Below are positions 5,859-58,364 of a DNA stretch of 64,000 nucleotides, one piece after another. Position numbers and translations under genes: made by a program. The notes under the pieces were generated by a model. That model was not told where the DNA came from and did no database searches. It worked only from the letters and a program-made list of their open reading frames with translations. The DNA comes from Akkermansia muciniphila (GTDB taxonomy: Bacteria; Verrucomicrobiota; Verrucomicrobiia; Verrucomicrobiales; Akkermansiaceae). The first letter of the stretch is position 1. Every line of letters starts with the position of its first letter. Location: contig NZ_CP156688.1 in NCBI RefSeq assembly GCF_040616545.1, positions 1,922,001-1,986,000 of the forward strand, given 5' to 3'.

Positions 5859-7499
5859 ATGAATAATTCGTTCAGGTTAACAGGGGAGATACTCGCATGC
5901 GCGTGCATGCTGGGCGGCATCCCCGCGCATGCAAACAAAACCCCCAATAACATGTCCACTCAAGATTCAGCAGCCATTCATCTCCCGTCCCAGGGGCGTG
6001 GAGACTCCAGGGTAGAATACCTGGGCCAGTCCATGGACCAGTTGATTTACGATTTCATGCAGGAGGAAAAAATTCCCGGCATGACCCTTGCGATTGTCCA
6101 GGCCCCCTACATTCCCCGCGTAGTGGGTTACGGCGTGTCCAATGCGGAAACCGGCCTTCTCGCTTCCACCAACACCCTGTGGCCCGCGGCGGAAATCTCC
6201 CAGGGATATGCCGCCATAGCCGCCTTCCAGCTGGTGGAGAAAGGGAAAATGGACATCCATGACAAGATTTCCCGCTACGTGGCGGGGCTGCCGGAAGCCT
6301 GGCAGAACGTCTCCGTGCTCCAGCTGTTGCAGCACTCTTCCGGCATTCCGGATTACAGGAAATCCCCCCAGTTTGACATGAGTAGGGATTATGATCCGGG
6401 AGAACTCCTTTCCCTGGTCAGGCTGAACGGCCTGGAATTCCCCTCCGGAACGGACGTGCGCCAGAGCGCCACGAACTTCCTGCTCCTGTCCATGGTCATT
6501 GATGCGGTAGCGGGCATGCCTTATGAAGAATTTGTCCGGGAAAACCAGTTCCAGCCCCTGGGCCTTCAGCACACGGTGTTCGGCAAGGATCTGGGAGCCA
6601 TACAGCAGGATAACGTGCGTGGGCATGACAATGAGCATACCCTCTTCAAATCCCGTGTGGGATATGTGAACCCGGCGGAAACGGCGGCGGGATATGCCGT
6701 GAAGGACGGGGCCGTGAAATCCGTTCCTCCGCCTGCGCGCTCCTCCTTGCGCGGCTTTTCCGACATCTGGTCCACTCCGCAGGAAATCAGCTTCTGGGAC
6801 ATTTGCCTGGCCGGCTCCATCCTGGTGAAGGATGAAAAGCACCGGGACATGATTTACAAGCCCATCCGCCTGGACAATGGAAAAATCGTCCCGGCCATGG
6901 CGGGCTGGCAGTTCCCGCACCACAAGGGCCTGATGGACATCAAGGGCGGCGTTCCCGGCTTTTCCTCCTACATCTGCCGGTTCACGGCCCCTTCCGAACT
7001 GGTGTGCGTGACCCTGACGGCGAACAAGGAAGGCGTGGACCTGACCAACCTGGCGCGCCGCATTGCCGGAGCGCTGGATCCCAAGCTCGGCTCCGGCCAG
7101 CTGGATGACAATTCCCTGTATCTTTATGAAAGCGTGTTCGGCGTGGATGAAACCATGGAACGCATTGAAAAGATTCTGGAGGGAAAATCCATTCCCGTCT
7201 TCGCCAGGATTGACCACGGAAAAAATGCCCGTGAGGCGGGGCTGGAAATGCCTCCCTCCAAGGTGGTCATTTTTGGCTCCCCCAAGGTAGGCACCAATCT
7301 GATGCTCGGAAATCCGGGCATTGCTACGGAACTGCCCCTGCGCATTGCCGTGTGGGAAGATAAGGAAGGCAGCACGTGGATCAGCTTTCCCCACATGGAA
7401 AAAATTGCCAGGGAATACGGCGTGGAAAATCTGCCTCCTGTTGCCCCCATCCGCCAGTTGCTGCGGAACATCGCCTCAAAAGCGGCCAATGTCTATTAA
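5859..7499 (+). CDS. secreted beta-lactamase/esterase-fold protein lacking the catalytic dyad
   Basis: A serine beta-lactamase-like (PF00144-type) protein of 546 residues. The typical context of the first motif (Q-L-V-E-K-G-K-M-D-I-H-D-K-I) and of the last (G-G-V-P-G-F-S-S) is easy to align. In place of S-x-x-K it reads E112-I-S-Q115, and in place of Y-S-N it reads Q202-S-A204. Nucleophile, general base and tyrosine all appear replaced, so it is probably a non-catalytic binding protein. About 140 residues of unknown function follow the domain. The N-terminus from 5859 looks like a signal peptide (cleavage near A-H-A, residue 25). An in-frame ATG at 5817 is possible but would bury the signal. 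Confidence 0.75.
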   Translation: MNNSFRLTGEILACACMLGGIPAHANKTPNNMSTQDSAAIHLPSQGRGDSRVEYLGQSMDQLIYDFMQEEKIPGMTLAIVQAPYIPRVVGYGVSNAETGLLASTNTLWPAAEISQGYAAIAAFQLVEKGKMDIHDKISRYVAGLPEAWQNVSVLQLLQHSSGIPDYRKSPQFDMSRDYDPGELLSLVRLNGLEFPSGTDVRQSATNFLLLSMVIDAVAGMPYEEFVRENQFQPLGLQHTVFGKDLGAIQQDNVRGHDNEHTLFKSRVGYVNPAETAAGYAVKDGAVKSVPPPARSSLRGFSDIWSTPQEISFWDICLAGSILVKDEKHRDMIYKPIRLDNGKIVPAMAGWQFPHHKGLMDIKGGVPGFSSYICRFTAPSELVCVTLTANKEGVDLTNLARRIAGALDPKLGSGQLDDNSLYLYESVFGVDETMERIEKILEGKSIPVFARIDHGKNAREAGLEMPPSKVVIFGSPKVGTNLMLGNPGIATELPLRIAVWEDKEGSTWISFPHMEKIAREYGVENLPPVAPIRQLLRNIASKAANVY

Positions 7500-7544
7500 A
7501 GAGGAGCAAGCGTGCGTTTTTGAAGAGTAAATTACCCGTAAAGA

Positions 7545-53447: not shown

Positions 53448-53569
53448 GGTTTATCATGAATTACGGATGAAAGTGAAGTGAAAGCCGAGTAATAAGCTGA
53501 AAATTTTACGAGGCTGGACCTTTGTATTCACTACGTCCTCCATGGAGAAAATCTTTCAAGACAACGGGC

Positions 53570-54583
53570 ATGATCAGGAAAACGTCAAAACGCAGGGGAT
53601 CCTCCGTCATTGCCGCCCTGATTGTACTATGTGCGGTGCTGGGCTACGGGCTGACGGAATGGAAACCGCTTCTGGATATGCCGGAGGCCGTCCCTGCCCA
53701 GCCGGGGGAAGCGCGGCAGTCATCTGTTCCGGAAAAAGTGGAAATCCCGGACAAGGGGGAGCCTGTCCGGATGCTGACCATGAACGCGGGCAACTACTTT
53801 GTTCCGGAAGACCCGCGGAGAAGCAACTTCCAGGTAAAATACAAGCCCGTGGAGGCGCGGGAAGCCCTGGCGGAACTGGTCCGGCAATCCGGGGCGGAAA
53901 TAGTGGGGCTGTCTGAAATGGGTGGAGAAGCCGCCGTGCGCGACTTGCAGATGCGGCTGAAAAGAAAAGGCATTCAACTGCCGCACAAGGTGCTGGTCAT
54001 GCGGAACGGAGAAGACCGGGGGCTGGCTCTCCTCTCCAAATATCCCATCGTGGACAACCGTTCCGTCACGGACATGCCTGTACCGGGAGAATCCAAACGG
54101 AAAAAAACAATGCTGCGCGGCATTCTGGACGCCACGGTGAAAACGCCGGATGGGCGCCTCTTCCGCCTGATGGGCATTCATTTGAAATCCCGCCTCAGCC
54201 GCGACGGCTCTGCGGAAGACACGCGGCGCAGGGAGGCCTACGCCTTGCGGGACTACTTGAATAAAGTCATCGCCTCCCAGGACGGAATGCCACTCCTTTT
54301 GTACGGAGATTTCAATGACGGCCCGGCGGACAGCGCCGTACAGGTCATCCAGGGTCCGGCGAAAACGGAATATCGTTTAAACCGCCTGAAACCCAGGGAT
54401 TCCCGCGGAGAGACCTGGACCATCTACTACGAAGACGGTGACACCTACCACTCCTTTGACCATCTCTTCATCAACAATACTCTGAAAAAGCGCCTTGGCC
54501 GCAAGCCCCCCATGGGCATCCTTGACTCTCCCCCCTCTCGCCAAGCCAGCGACCACCGCGGCGTATGGGTAGAATTGAGGTAG
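53570..54583 (+). CDS. membrane-anchored endonuclease/exonuclease/phosphatase-family protein
   Basis: A 337-residue EEP-superfamily protein with one N-terminal transmembrane anchor (residues 10-27). The core carries the motifs of the superfamily: L-S-E-M (with the metal-binding Glu), G-I-H-L-K-S-R, G-D-F-N-D-G-P and S-D-H-R-G-V-W-V (catalytic His at the C-terminus). Relatives include phosphodiesterases such as sphingomyelinases and nucleases. Cell-surface or periplasmic location is implied. The upstream TTG at 53522 is an alternative start. The gene forms the left border of the acquired island. Confidence 0.85.
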   Translation: MIRKTSKRRGSSVIAALIVLCAVLGYGLTEWKPLLDMPEAVPAQPGEARQSSVPEKVEIPDKGEPVRMLTMNAGNYFVPEDPRRSNFQVKYKPVEAREALAELVRQSGAEIVGLSEMGGEAAVRDLQMRLKRKGIQLPHKVLVMRNGEDRGLALLSKYPIVDNRSVTDMPVPGESKRKKTMLRGILDATVKTPDGRLFRLMGIHLKSRLSRDGSAEDTRRREAYALRDYLNKVIASQDGMPLLLYGDFNDGPADSAVQVIQGPAKTEYRLNRLKPRDSRGETWTIYYEDGDTYHSFDHLFINNTLKKRLGRKPPMGILDSPPSRQASDHRGVWVELR

Positions 54584-54875
54584 GTAATAATGATTTATTA
54601 TAAAAAAGATACGCAATAAATATTTGTTAGATTTTTTAATTGATAAAATTGATATTTTCGTAACATAAAAATACATTTGCAAAAATCTAAAAAAATAATA
54701 TTCTAACAAAAGTGAAATTTGTAGTACTATTCTTTAGCATTACCAGTTCAAATAATTAATAACTATTTAATATGGCAGTATTTTAAAATATAGTCGAAAA
54801 TTTGGAAATATTTTTCGAATTTTAATGAGATTTTCTTTTATTATAATAACGCTTTCTTTTTGAACATTAACATTA
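54584..54875 (+). promoter_or_regulatory. A+T-rich leader of the Thoeris island
   Basis: A 292-nt noncoding stretch in which G+C falls sharply relative to its left flank. TTTGTTAG (54623-54630) is complementary to CTAACAAA (54703-54710), and AGATTTTT (54629-54636) to AAAAATCT (54681-54688), so two nested pairings are possible. A TATAAT (54842-54847) lies 29 nt before the macro-protein gene and is the best -10 candidate; no clear -35 or Shine-Dalgarno sequence is visible. No tRNA or repeat marks the left end. Confidence 0.55.
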
Positions 54876-55709
54876 ATGATCATAAGGAAATTACTAAATA
54901 AAAGTTTGTGGATTGACAGCTTCACTGTTGCCATTTCTATTGTTGCTGCTATTGAAACTATTGCAGCAATATCTGGTCTTTCGTTAGAAGATTTTGATGA
55001 TTCTATTTCTTGGGGCATAAAGCTCATAATTATCGCAGGAACTCTATTTTTGATATGTTTTATTGTTGGGATAACAAAAGGATTAATTAATTCAAAGAAT
55101 TTAAAAATTAAAATCCGAAATATTGACGTTACGATAACTACTGGAGATTTATTTAAGACTAATGGTTGGAGAGTAATACCGTTTAATGAATATTATGATA
55201 CAAAAGTTGATGACATCGTAATTGCTAAAAAATCCTTAAATGGAATTTTTCTCAACCAATACGTATCGGATATATCGAATGTAGAACAGGAGATAGAAAG
55301 TTATGTTGGTGTATTGAAGAGTAGAACAAAACATAATAGGGTATGTTATCCGCTCGGTAATATAATTCCTTATGTTGAGAATGAGGATAATAGGTATATG
55401 CTATTGGCTCTTACTCATTTTGATAAGAATGAGGCTCGAATAACTCATGAAGAATATGAATCATGTCTCATAACTATGTGGAAAGAGATTAGCCGTGCTT
55501 ACGCATATTATCCAATTTCTCTACCTTTAATAGGAGGAGGAATAACACGAATAGCCGGGAATAGTGACAAGAATGAAGAACAACTATTAAGATGTATCTT
55601 GTGTACATTAAAATATTCTGATACGCAAATCGGTAAACCTGTAACAATCGTTCTAACAGAGGATACTATCAGAAAAATTGATTTATATAACATAAAAAAA
55701 CATTTTTAA
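54876..55709 (+). CDS. type II Thoeris ThsA-like TM-macro protein (DUF6430-like)
   Basis: A 277-residue protein with two N-terminal transmembrane helices (about 12-34 and 46-68) and a cytoplasmic macro-like domain (about 80-277). Segments such as I-D-V-T-I-T-T-G-D-L-F, N-E-Y-Y-D-T and I-G-G-G-I-T-R-I-A-G resemble the DUF6430 macro domains. In type II Thoeris the TM-macro effector is believed to bind a histidine-ADP-ribose signal made by its TIR partner, then to act on the membrane. The A+T-rich codons contrast strongly with the host. The TIR gene starts 1 nt after the stop. Confidence 0.8.
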   Translation: MIIRKLLNKSLWIDSFTVAISIVAAIETIAAISGLSLEDFDDSISWGIKLIIIAGTLFLICFIVGITKGLINSKNLKIKIRNIDVTITTGDLFKTNGWRVIPFNEYYDTKVDDIVIAKKSLNGIFLNQYVSDISNVEQEIESYVGVLKSRTKHNRVCYPLGNIIPYVENEDNRYMLLALTHFDKNEARITHEEYESCLITMWKEISRAYAYYPISLPLIGGGITRIAGNSDKNEEQLLRCILCTLKYSDTQIGKPVTIVLTEDTIRKIDLYNIKKHF

Positions 55710-55710
55710 C

Positions 55711-56229
55711 ATGAGCCGTACTAAAACTTATATTGCTGGTGATTGGGATCATGATGATAAGGCTGTAAAAATGCTGCATTATTGGAATAATAGCAGTAAG
55801 TATGGTCTATCATTCTCTGATGCCCACGACTTAACACAAGCTCGAGATACAAGTTTGAAGTGTTCAATAAAACGATCATTAGCGTATCGCATGAATGAAT
55901 CTAAGACTTTTGTCTTGATCGTTGGTGAACACACAAAAAATCTGAGAGCTGGTAGTTGTTACTATTGTGACAGTTACAATAACTATACCTGCTCTTGTGC
56001 TCGAGGTAATAGCGTGGATTATCAAAGTTATATTGACTTTGAATGTAAAAAGGCAGTCTCTGATGAATTGGAAATCATAGTATTTTACAACTCTACTGTT
56101 GTAAATCGAGACAAATGCCCTGAAATAGTACGATGGCGAGGTGTGCATAGAGCTATGCAAAAAAGAGAGAATGGTCAATTGGAGTGGGATTATGTTAATG
56201 TTAAGGCTGCTTTCAATGAATCTAAATAA
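55711..56229 (+). CDS. type II Thoeris ThsB-like TIR-domain protein
   Basis: A 172-residue TIR-like protein. The N-terminal K-T-Y-I-A-G-D-W-D-H-D segment forms strand beta1 and its loop, S-K-T-F-V-L-I-V-G-E-H-T corresponds to the core strand, and the predicted catalytic glutamate is E111 in F-E-C-K-K-A (compared with W-E-I in other TIRs). Four cysteines (C83, C86, C94, C96) in a loop between the core and this glutamate may bind Zn2+. TIR proteins of type II Thoeris turn NAD+ into a signal during phage infection. The gene is A+T-rich and directly follows the macro protein gene. Confidence 0.82.
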   Translation: MSRTKTYIAGDWDHDDKAVKMLHYWNNSSKYGLSFSDAHDLTQARDTSLKCSIKRSLAYRMNESKTFVLIVGEHTKNLRAGSCYYCDSYNNYTCSCARGNSVDYQSYIDFECKKAVSDELEIIVFYNSTVVNRDKCPEIVRWRGVHRAMQKRENGQLEWDYVNVKAAFNESK

Positions 56230-56274
56230 CGTAAATGGGTTGTGTCAAAACTAACAGCCCCTTTTATAATTATA

Positions 56275-56805
56275 TCAAGGGATATACAGCAGCGTAAACT
56301 CCGCCTTCCTCCGTTTAAGTAGCATGGTGTGCCGTTTCTCCTTGTAGTTGCAAAAAGCTATATACTCCCGATAAATATTCCGGTCGCCAGCCTCCAATTT
56401 GCGAATCAGCGTGCTTTTGGGCATCTTTCCGCTACCCAAAAGTCGGTATGGTCCGACATTGTAAGCGAGGGTGGCAAGGAGCAGACTGTCACGCCCGAAT
56501 TCCCGGAACATCGCGCAGAACTTCCGCAGGTCTTTGCTTCGGAGCGCATCCGCCTGCCTTTTAGTTATGGTGCGTGCCGAGTACCTTTCGCCCGGCAAGA
56601 GTTTGTGTCCCCATCCTACATACAAATGGTGTTTCTCCGAGTGCCAGCCCTCAAAGTATTTCGTGCAGCGCACTGCACGCTCGAAAGATGGCAGGCGGTA
56701 GATTGCCGCCTGCCCGTTTGTCCCCTCATGACGGCTGTCCTGTGCAGACACGGAACAGACCACCAAAAAGGAAAAGAACATTGCCATGAAAACACGCATC
56801 ATCAT
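56275..56805 (-). CDS. lysozyme-like protein of a Bacteroidales conjugative transposon
   Basis: A 176-residue secreted GH24-like lysozyme (signal peptide cleaved near S-V-S-A-Q, residue 22). The catalytic glutamate is expected in Y-F-E-G-W-H (about 50), followed by H-L-Y-V-G-W-G-H-K-L. The block from G-H-K-L-L-P-G-E-R-Y-S-A-R-T to L-A-T-L-A-Y-N-V-G-P-Y-R-L-L-G is that of the lysozymes encoded downstream of traQ in CTnDOT-like conjugative transposons. The usual T/D pair of the GH24 site is changed (V in place of T), as in that group. It overlaps the traQ remnant by 4 nt, a spacing found in intact elements. This reading frame appears intact. Confidence 0.82.
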   Translation of the reverse strand: MMMRVFMAMFFSFLVVCSVSAQDSRHEGTNGQAAIYRLPSFERAVRCTKYFEGWHSEKHHLYVGWGHKLLPGERYSARTITKRQADALRSKDLRKFCAMFREFGRDSLLLATLAYNVGPYRLLGSGKMPKSTLIRKLEAGDRNIYREYIAFCNYKEKRHTMLLKRRKAEFTLLYIP

Positions 56806-57236
56806 GGCAGTGGCTTGAAATTGCCGATGGGGATAACAGTTTGGTCGTCCTTCCCGATCCGATTATTGAAGTCAAATTCCAATTCGTAGGAATTGTCGAA
56901 ATTGTCTTCAACTACTACGATGAAGTTGTGCGCCTCGTCGCTCTTCGGCTTATAGTATAGCCGGAACTTCTCGTTTTCGAGCAGGTAGTGGTCGTTGGGC
57001 AGGAAGGTGATGCCGTTATCCATTGTCAGCGTTCCCTCGCCCTCGAACTGCAAATACCAAATGGTGTATACCTGGATGCCGGTGCCGAACAGGAGTTCCA
57101 CTACGGCAATGTTGCGGACGATTTCCTGATAACGGTAACCCGTTTTGCCGGAACAGGCATTTTTCTCCCGGTACAGGGTGGTCAGAATGGAGGCCACTTC
57201 CATGGAGTCCATCACGGGAGGAAACAGGAGTATCAT
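56802..57236 (-). pseudogene. traQ: traQ (DUF3872-like) remnant with altered 5' end
   Basis: The last 85 codons or so resemble the DUF3872/TraQ of Bacteroidales conjugative transposons (L-Q-F-E-G-E-G-T-L, F-L-P-N-D-H-Y-L-L-E-N-E-K-F-R-L-Y-Y, V-V-V-E-D-N-F). The N-terminal 60 residues do not look like TraQ: other frames of the same DNA carry scraps such as M-P-V-P-A-K, which suggests frameshifts. The start is not convincing and no signal peptide is found. So I treat it as a decayed 5' part of the gene joined to an intact 3' part. No further transfer gene lies upstream. Confidence 0.65.
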
Positions 57237-57653
57237 CCGGCACGAAGGAACAGTTTTCCCGGATGAAGGGGAAGATGGCTGGTTCTCTGCTCCTGTTTAA
57301 GGTTTCTTTTCCGAGAAAGGATGAACCGTTAAACTGTTGCGGTCATCATGGGAGCGTTGCCTGCCATCCGGTTGCAGGAGGAGTGGTGAGTGAACTCTGG
57401 AAAATCGGCCTTTCAAAGGTGGTTCAAGGGCTTTTTCCTCCCTATGCTTCTTGAGTTGTGTGGATTGAATCAGCCGAAAATTCCTTTCTTCCGGATGGTT
57501 CATGGCGCCGGGAATGATCGGGTGGTGAAACCCCGCCGGATTTTTGTTTGGACGGGAGCATATCCGGCATTCCCGTTTCTCAAAAAATGATTGCCGTGCC
57601 CGCGTGAAACGGGTAGCATGCCAAAAATCGTTGTTCAATCCTGCATTATCTGT
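57237..57653 (+). other. right border of the island and upstream region of the pseudopilin genes
   Basis: This 417-nt spacer contains no convincing gene, repeat or RNA gene. A 125-codon reading frame on the minus strand (57297-57674) has no coding character. The base composition is host-like here, so the right edge of the island must lie within about 57200-57300. Promoter candidates for the pseudopilins were not convincing. Confidence 0.5.
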
Positions 57654-58364
57654 ATGAGAAATTTTTCCAAGCATTCCGGAGCGGCGTCACGCTGTTCTTC
57701 GTCAGGGAGCAAGGGGTTTACCCTGGTGGAACTGATTGTCGTCATCACCATTATGGTTGCTATGATGGCGCTGGCCGCCAGCATGTTAAGAGGCGGGGGC
57801 AGGGGGCAGGGCCTTCAGTCCGCCGTGGAGATGGTTGACGGCATGGTGCAGGAAGCCCGGCTGGACGCCATGGGCAAGGGGACGTGGAGCCGCCTGATTA
57901 TTGTCAGCACTCCTGAGGACGAGGCCCGCAACATGCGCACCCTGGGCGTGATGTCCAAGAATACGCGCACCGGAAAATGGCACCTGGTCAACCGCTTGCA
58001 GACGCTTCCCGCCGGGTTCTACATCAGCCCCACTTACAGCACTCTTCTGGAAGGTTCCAAAAAGACCAAGGGCGGAAAGTCCGTGGCCCGCGGCTTTGCC
58101 AGCCGTGACGGGCAGGATACCGTCAATCTTCCCGGCAACAGGATGACGGATATTTATTTCATTGAGTTTGACGAGGAGGGCCGCATGTCCCAGCCGAACG
58201 CCCCCACCCGCCTGGTGGTGGTTTCCGGTTCCGCCGGTAACGGCAAGGAGGAGAAGCCTTCCCCGATGGTGGACGGCAAGCCGGGCCTGGCAGGCGGCAT
58301 CGTGATTTATCCCAAGGGCAATATCAGCCGGCTGAGAACGACGGAGCAGGTGATTCCCAACTAA
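57654..58364 (+). CDS. pseudopilin 1, Verru_Chthon cassette D-like
   Basis: A 236-residue type IV pilin-like protein. The prepilin motif G|F-T-L-V-E-L-I-V-V-I-T-I-M-V begins after a 21-residue leader of positive and polar residues and would be cut by the prepilin peptidase at 36.1 kb. The C-terminal part is a beta-rich head with basic loops (S-K-K-T-K-G-G-K). Of the Verru_Chthon cassette proteins it fits the D type best. In-frame ATGs at 57591 and 57618 give unlikely longer leaders. pseudopilins 2 and 3 follow. Confidence 0.85.
   Translation: MRNFSKHSGAASRCSSSGSKGFTLVELIVVITIMVAMMALAASMLRGGGRGQGLQSAVEMVDGMVQEARLDAMGKGTWSRLIIVSTPEDEARNMRTLGVMSKNTRTGKWHLVNRLQTLPAGFYISPTYSTLLEGSKKTKGGKSVARGFASRDGQDTVNLPGNRMTDIYFIEFDEEGRMSQPNAPTRLVVVSGSAGNGKEEKPSPMVDGKPGLAGGIVIYPKGNISRLRTTEQVIPN

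Follow-up and report, generated by a model that had tools for sequence, protein, structure and literature searches.

A type II Thoeris gene pair of Akkermansia muciniphila as the probable cargo of an invertible cassette that is now frozen

A stretch of 64,000 nucleotides (nt) from Akkermansia muciniphila (contig NZ_CP156688.1, positions 1,922,001 to 1,986,000 of the forward strand; hereafter the window, in whose own coordinates positions are given) carries two adjacent genes, thsA and thsB, which an initial annotation made from the sequence alone had proposed to be a type II Thoeris antiphage system. Both open reading frames (ORFs) were confirmed, with a spacing of 1 nt between them:

54876..55709, plus strand: thsA, 277 amino acids, a two-helix membrane domain and a macro domain (PADLOC, PF20016, PDB 8v6q)
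55711..56229, plus strand: thsB, 172 amino acids, a TIR protein (PADLOC, PF08937, alignment of 16 sequences)

The pair was found to be far more A+T-rich than its surroundings, as had been claimed. The GC content of thsA and thsB together is 0.331, which lies below the lowest value (0.536) among 1,173 segments of the same length (1,354 nt) taken outside the island, for which the mean was 0.602 (standard deviation 0.019). The type II Thoeris identity was borne out by profiles, solved relatives, predicted folds and active-site residues, all of which were in agreement. PADLOC profiles for ThsA and ThsB matched the two proteins at 4.5e-72 and 5.6e-78 respectively; NCBIfam returned nothing above its cut-offs for either. 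A macro fold was found in the first protein and a TIR fold in the second, and neither protein had its best match in an unrelated family. Chance does not account for the observation. The two genes constitute a type II Thoeris system and add a new member to that known class.

ThsA matched PF20016 (ThsA_Macro) with an E-value of 5.8e-43, and four solved ThsA macro domains, the best of which was EcThsA (PDB 8v6q, 1.9e-34). Two hydrophobic stretches were detected, with 19-residue Kyte-Doolittle maxima of 1.94 at residue 17 and 2.72 at residue 48. AlphaFold models were built for both proteins from the window protein and its homologues at other loci (mean predicted local distance difference test score 79.2 for ThsA and 85.1 for ThsB), and that of ThsA has helices at residues 9-39 and 42-71, both before the macro domain. 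Residues 73-277 of the model matched EcThsA 8v6q with a VIA-align Z score of 25.3 over 197 residues at 1.9 Å, and the signal-bound structure 8r66, which we take to be BaThsA with histidine-ADP-ribose (His-ADPR), with a Z score of 24.9. The EcThsA pocket residues D83, L113, N114, G218 and T220 correspond to D91, L121, N122, G222 and T224 in the window protein. These data support the two-helix membrane protein with a macro domain that had been predicted.

ThsB matched the Pfam family ThsB_TIR (PF08937) at 2.9e-8, over residues 13-79 only, and EcThsB2 (8v6t) at 7.6e-9 over residues 3-78. The ThsB model matched EcThsB2 with a Z score of 13.1 (133 residues, 2.6 Å), which was tied with the scores of other TIR domains, e.g. 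SARM1 (12.8); with the PADLOC match, these results agree with the prediction of a TIR-like second protein. An alignment of 16 ThsB sequences was assembled from the window protein, L003 and 14 of the 15 loci of the contig scan described below, the short L019 being left out (L numbers denote loci and G numbers genomes). The glutamate guessed to be catalytic in the initial annotation, E111, was invariant in all 16 sequences, as was Tyr7. From the sequence alignment to EcThsB2, outside which E111 falls, we take Tyr7 to be the active-site tyrosine of the ThsB class associated with transmembrane (TM)-macro ThsA. Five cysteines (Cys51, 83, 86, 96 and 112) were likewise invariant, Cys112 adjoining the catalytic glutamate; judged from sequence, they may constitute a metal site. 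Excerpts of Shi et al. (2024; PMC11204291) state that ThsB subfamilies with an active-site tyrosine occur only with TM-macro ThsA, and that BaThs, with a Tyr-type active site, makes His-ADPR.

In the genomes of relatives the macro family PF20016 was found in 4 of 192, the window's own included. It was not found in the conspecific genome G192, which does not imply its absence; the G192 contigs break off at the site or beside it. When genome contigs were scanned with ThsB, 15 relatives were returned at up to 60% identity, from Bacteroidota, Bacillota, Desulfobacteraceae, an archaeon and others, including Phocaeicola (60%) and Dysgonamonadaceae (58%). ThsB is adjoined by a ThsA macro protein at 12 of these 15 loci, although in L011 only the first part of the protein matches, in one frame; where no macro protein adjoins it (L010, L013 and L019), the locus is short or ThsB is close to the end of its contig. 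A search for close viral relatives of ThsA gave 10 pattern matches, none of which was a relative. At L015-L018 the macro protein that partners ThsB has a soluble-looking N-terminal domain of ∼155-175 residues in place of the membrane helices, with no Pfam family above cut-off; maximum hydropathy in the first 150 residues was 0.63-0.96 in these proteins (L016 being counted from an internal ATG) vs 2.29-3.07 in four membrane-type ThsA.

The genes and sequences on either side of the pair are as follows:

53522..54583, plus strand: left flanking host gene of the endonuclease/exonuclease/phosphatase family (PF03372, 1.7e-12), a conserved boundary of the hotspot
54584..54757, no strand: A+T-rich left flank, common to several sister-genome cassettes (blastn and alignment)
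54758..54774, plus strand: decayed left recombination site AATAACTATTTAATATG, with 3 mismatches in 17 to GATAACTATTTATTATC
56275..56805, minus strand: lysozyme-like gene (PF00959, 1.6e-8), from a Bacteroidales conjugative element
56802..57236, minus strand: chimeric ORF, a recombinase slice and the in-frame C-terminal half of TraQ (DUF3872; PF12988 positions 63-132 of 133, 2.3e-26)
57068..57229, minus strand: tyrosine recombinase remnant of 162 bp, 86-95% identical to L041, L042, L044, L045, L046 and L052
57591..58364, plus strand: right flanking host gene with a prepilin-like N-terminus (judged by eye), a conserved boundary

The Thoeris genes are placed between the decayed left site and the traQ-lysozyme insert. 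Homology to traQ begins at 57068, directly at the edge of the recombinase remnant, and the traQ part and lysozyme gene (57068-56275) are 80.6% identical to the tra region of a Bacteroides fragilis plasmid. The fragment is fused in frame to the recombinase remnant (56275-57236) and represents cross-phylum DNA in this genome. Blastn matches to the left flank end at 54773-54775 in L041, L042 and L043, at 54755 in L051 and at 54658 in L044, and reach only 54586 in L045 and L046; conservation of the right flank begins between 57236 and 57539, depending on the genome. No right-hand site was found at up to 3 mismatches in 54001-58000, nor any inverted repeat of 14 nt or more in 54500-57500. The A+T-rich left flank may carry a promoter that reads into the cargo; a promoter scan of 54560-56300 gave 13 sites vs 10.6 expected by shuffling, which is background. 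Integration linked to a tRNA was considered and rejected, as a search of the window with ARAGORN gave no tRNA gene. The initial annotation mentioned neither the scrap of recombinase nor the decayed site, nor the exchangeable, invertible cassette of sister genomes. Its claim that the pair was acquired recently was upheld in part: the scarcity of PF20016 among relatives and the A+T-richness of the pair favour it, but cargo at this site is often A+T-rich, and decay of the machinery beside it has already taken place.

Occupancy of the same site was assessed by searching 76 genomes of the genus with the flanks; 36 gave some match, and long matches to both flanks were found in 12 only, namely the window's own genome (G000), the conspecific G192 and G049, G017, G047, G073, G054, G074, G053, G037, G004 and G070. 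The site is empty in four of the 12 (G047, G053, G054 and G070), where the flanks nearly meet and neither the recombinase nor the recombination site was found; G054 retains a 47-bp piece of the left flank. The cargo of the occupied sites is varied. Among the genes carried by G073 are those for a type III methyltransferase (7.9e-220) and a helicase-like protein; one site and no recombinase were found there. G049 carries a 1,138-residue protein (weak AAA ATPase matches below Pfam cut-offs) and a glycosyltransferase-9-like protein. The cargo of G017, G037 and G004 is an ATPase-domain protein and an SHMT-like protein (the proteins were scanned in G017), a convergent pair at L042:1881-5543, L045:1662-5324 and L046:2963-6625 that is found in both orientations at ∼97% identity and is possibly an undescribed defence pair. 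G074 carries a SIR2-STALD protein (PADLOC ThsA, 7.2e-165) and a TIR protein, encoded on opposite strands inside an inverted-site cassette (L044:1902-4026). The TIR part matches ThsB models at 2.7e-13 and PDC-S66 better, at 1.2e-18, and the pair is therefore called type I Thoeris-like rather than proven Thoeris; it may be switchable. Clear defence cargo at the site was seen in the window, G074 and G073 only. In G192 the recombinase is present, and two contigs end at or next to the site with the cargo unassembled there. One-mismatch sites also stand at contig starts in G034 (G034:C2:32-47 and G034:C89:1-16); such breaks at sites would fit mixed orientations in the sequenced population.

A complete tyrosine recombinase of ∼320 residues is present in G049, G017, G074, G037 and G004 (E-value 5.2e-183 or better), that of G049 matching PF00589 at 6e-42. 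Residues R166, K190, H259, R262, H285 and Y294 were invariant in nine sequences, and R-K-H-R-H-Y is presumably the catalytic set of tyrosine recombinases. Among 260 genomes of the family, the recombinase was found at E<=1e-70 in nine, all within the genus. Exact copies of the 16-mer GATAACTATTKATTAT number 11, spread over 6 of the 76 genomes and all at the hotspot locus, vs one place for the backward control. One forward and one reverse copy are present in each of G049, G017, G074, G037 and G004, and a single copy in G073. An inverted site pair brackets the cargo in all five hotspot genomes that have the recombinase and both flanks on one contig. Both copies in G074 share a variant core, TTG for TTT. 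Direct-repeat att sites were considered as an explanation of the islands and rejected, as the two sites of each shared pair stand in inverted and not in direct orientation.

Recombinase relatives at 52-53% identity were found outside the hotspot in G014, G058 and G034. In G014 (L056) a 32-nt inverted repeat with core GATAACTATAAATTAT surrounds a methyltransferase and a protein of no Pfam family; the two start codons fall within the repeat, and MDTI is the N-terminal sequence of each protein. L056 adjoins genes that resemble, by eye, those of a sugar pathway. A virus contig (L069, IMG/VR) has the same flip-cassette architecture (5929-7533), with a 63% identical recombinase and a 16-nt perfect inverted pair with core ACTG. 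The cargo is a methyltransferase and a protein of no known kind, and the cassette is flanked by a capsid gene on one side and by a gene with no Pfam family on the other. Part of G017 matches most of the L069 capsid gene at 97% identity. The corresponding capsid and downstream parts of G013 are separated by 849 bp rather than about 2.9 kb, and therefore no cassette of the L069 size lies between them; in G074 the parts that match L069 are in another order. Distant viral recombinases were scanned by script at 26 of 80 loci, together with L055 and L056. Among the 26 viral loci only L071, on the same contig as L069, had a site pair around convergent genes; the other viral inverted repeats (13-20 nt) showed no such arrangement where printed, and several of the recombinases lie at contig ends.

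Seven cassettes were thus available for comparison, five at the hotspot (three with the same cargo), L056 and L069, with five different cargos. In all seven, the two genes converge, each reading inward from a site, with a 3′ overlap of 12-39 nt, and the distance between start codon and outer end of a site is 14-46 nt in 13 of 14 cases; the exception, in L069, is an ORF that as called starts 20 nt outside the site and has an ATG just inside it. Sixteen nucleotides are identical within each of the seven site pairs, and four different cores are found between cassettes. The hotspot recombinase reads toward the cargo. The right-hand cargo gene may therefore ride on the recombinase transcript, the left-hand gene facing the A+T-rich left flank, and a flip would exchange their places.

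Cargo orientation was compared between genomes rather than within one strain. Only after reverse-complementing does the 3,688-bp cargo of G037 match the cargo of G017, at 96.6% identity, and that of G004, at 97.0% (53% when compared directly); the orientation of the flanks is unchanged and the cargo is inverted exactly between the sites. Misassembly is unlikely to account for these opposite orientations, because the repeats, at 17-18 bp, are shorter than sequencing reads. Between G017 and G004 the cargo is 97.0% identical, but identity is lower outside it: 71.0% for the left flank, 81.8% for the endonuclease gene, 86.1% for the recombinase gene and 76.4% for the 400 bp that follow. The cargo has therefore moved between species as a site-bounded unit. 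For G037 and G004, flank and cargo identities are similar (about 95-97%), which is what close relatives should show.

These data suggest the following reading. On infection, ThsB probably converts NAD+ by base exchange into an adenine-dinucleotide signal, for which His-ADPR is the best-supported candidate given a Tyr-containing ThsB. Judged from relatives, the macro domain of ThsA would bind the signal, ThsA would cluster in the membrane and the infected cell would stop growing or die. In the sister genomes the recombinase would flip the cargo, swapping the gene that faces the fixed left flank, and the cargo would be replaced between species as a site-bounded unit. An intact recombinase and two inverted sites mark the sister cassettes; the window holds one decayed site and the 162-bp remnant. 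Its left site has decayed and its right site is gone, the 3′ part of the recombinase having apparently been replaced by the traQ and lysozyme DNA of a Bacteroidales conjugative element. As the window has neither right site nor functional recombinase, the Thoeris pair looks frozen, presumably with both genes fixed so that they read away from the left flank, and the simplest reading is that the window cassette froze after the loss of both. That the type II Thoeris pair is the cargo of a frozen flip cassette is, taken as a whole, probable. We lean, by a narrower measure, towards a broader proposal, that a flip-and-swap platform exists in the genus and in one or more related virus contigs. In it, a tyrosine recombinase and inverted dif-like sites would flip a convergent gene pair, with its starts at the sites, relative to fixed flanking transcription, and whole gene pairs (defence systems, methyltransferases and others) would be exchanged at the sites between species; the Thoeris pair of the window would be captured cargo whose switch was later broken, leaving the immune genes in a single orientation.

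Several observations weigh against these proposals. The link between the Thoeris pair and the cassette consists of position, one decayed site with its 3 mismatches in 17 and the recombinase scrap; thsA starts 118 nt from the first base of the site and stands in tandem with thsB, whereas cassette genes converge and begin closer to a site (14-46 nt for 13 of 14). PADLOC names neither G049 protein nor the SHMT-like protein, and the ATPase protein only at 0.0066. With one mismatch allowed, the site pattern matches in 18 of the 76 genomes, many of the matches being single and scattered, and the backward control matches too; only the exact-site search was used for site counts. G034 has no site pair beside its recombinase, and G058 ends at a contig edge. 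It is common for hotspots to collect defence cargo of several kinds. The window might thus hold an ordinary type II Thoeris system in an ordinary defence hotspot, with the recombinase as the integrase of past islands and the inverted sites incidental. The window has no working recombinase and only part of the sister cargo is recognised by PADLOC, which would suit such an explanation, but the sites are inverted and not direct as attL and attR would be, 16 nt match within each of seven pairs and the cargo of G037 is opposite to that of G017 and G004; we consider it improbable. There is more to be said for arrival of the Thoeris genes with the Bacteroidales conjugative DNA that broke the recombinase, rather than as cassette cargo. 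The traQ-lysozyme DNA directly adjoins thsB (match 57068 to 56275) and the ThsB homologues include those of Phocaeicola and Dysgonamonadaceae. However, the match to the Bacteroidales record extends no further than the lysozyme gene, no Thoeris gene is annotated in the 6.8 kb of that record shown, and thsA stands beside the left flank and site of the cassette itself. A conjugative origin is a possibility to be held in mind, though a doubtful one.

Two further alternatives concern the function of the pair. Four residues of the ADPR pocket of ThsA differ from EcThsA (S175 to T, S217 to G, H259 to T and K262 to T), the glycine at the S217 position replacing a serine found in eight of nine relatives, and ThsB has Glu121 where the other 15 sequences have Lys. 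With the last three of the pocket changes and remnants for neighbours, the pair could be decaying and no longer signal. Both frames are nevertheless open, the pair keeps nearly all columns invariant in its relatives (41 of 42 in ThsB, residue 121 being the exception, and 17 of 17 in ThsA, among nine others), and by alignment 8r66 also departs from EcThsA at the H259 and K262 positions; decay is unlikely. The signal might alternatively be a molecule other than His-ADPR, with another base exchanged for nicotinamide. EcThsB1 takes imidazole and histamine and not histidine, according to the same excerpts (PMC11204291), and no published test of the cysteine-bearing ThsB subgroup was found, but Tyr7 fits the Tyr-type active site that is paired with His-ADPR in BaThs. 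A different signal is accordingly a tentative suggestion, less probable than His-ADPR.

The pair resembles the type II Thoeris systems of Bacillus amyloliquefaciens Y2 and E. coli (EcThsA/EcThsB2) in its two-helix membrane and macro effector, its Tyr/Glu TIR protein and its adjacent genes. It differs from them in the five invariant cysteines of its ThsB subgroup (the EcThsB2 alignment covers residues 3-78 only), in the ThsA pocket and in its place within the remnant of an invertible cassette. Invertible DNA between inverted repeats has been described, probably in the same genus, for the Akkermansia cps1 inverton, the motif of which is given as CGGATT..AATCCG in the abstracted text of that report (PMC13343947), and 32 A. 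muciniphila invertons are stated in part of another (PMC11892184) to share one repeat group matching the published motif. By the portion available of the former, the cps1 element is an invertible element beside cps1, whereas at the hotspot the invertible unit is an entire two-gene cargo, the sites have a different sequence, a recombinase lies next to them and cargo is exchanged between species. Inversion of hsdS is well known (excerpts of PMC5903667 and PMC11892184), and the type I restriction hsdS shufflons are alike in that site-specific inversion acts on a defence system; hsdS inversion, however, alters one specificity subunit, whereas the hotspot cassette swaps different convergent genes as whole units. 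Conserved flanks and variable cargo that includes defence systems are shared with defence hotspots such as the core hotspots of Pseudomonas (PMC10250203, in extract); unlike those, the cargo here is bounded by inverted sites beside a resident recombinase and is found in both orientations. Recombinases often adjoin defence genes, according to an extract of PMC12529663, and the excerpted text of a paper on Akkermansia genomes (PMC8278651) mentions CRISPR and phages and no such cassette. Among the matches listed, seen in excerpt and with most subscription journals outside the search, there was no published report of an invertible, exchangeable two-gene defence cassette.

The site combines an inverton with a defence hotspot, each of a known kind, and is of more interest than the Thoeris pair itself, though the copy in the window is a remnant. 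How costly abortive defence systems are gated is an open question. With Thoeris genes of both the type I-like and the type II kind in the same slot of sister genomes, switchable and frozen versions could be compared, and, if the proposal is true, an invertible and exchangeable two-gene cassette bounded by recombinase sites would be a simple way to bet-hedge and to trade immune genes.
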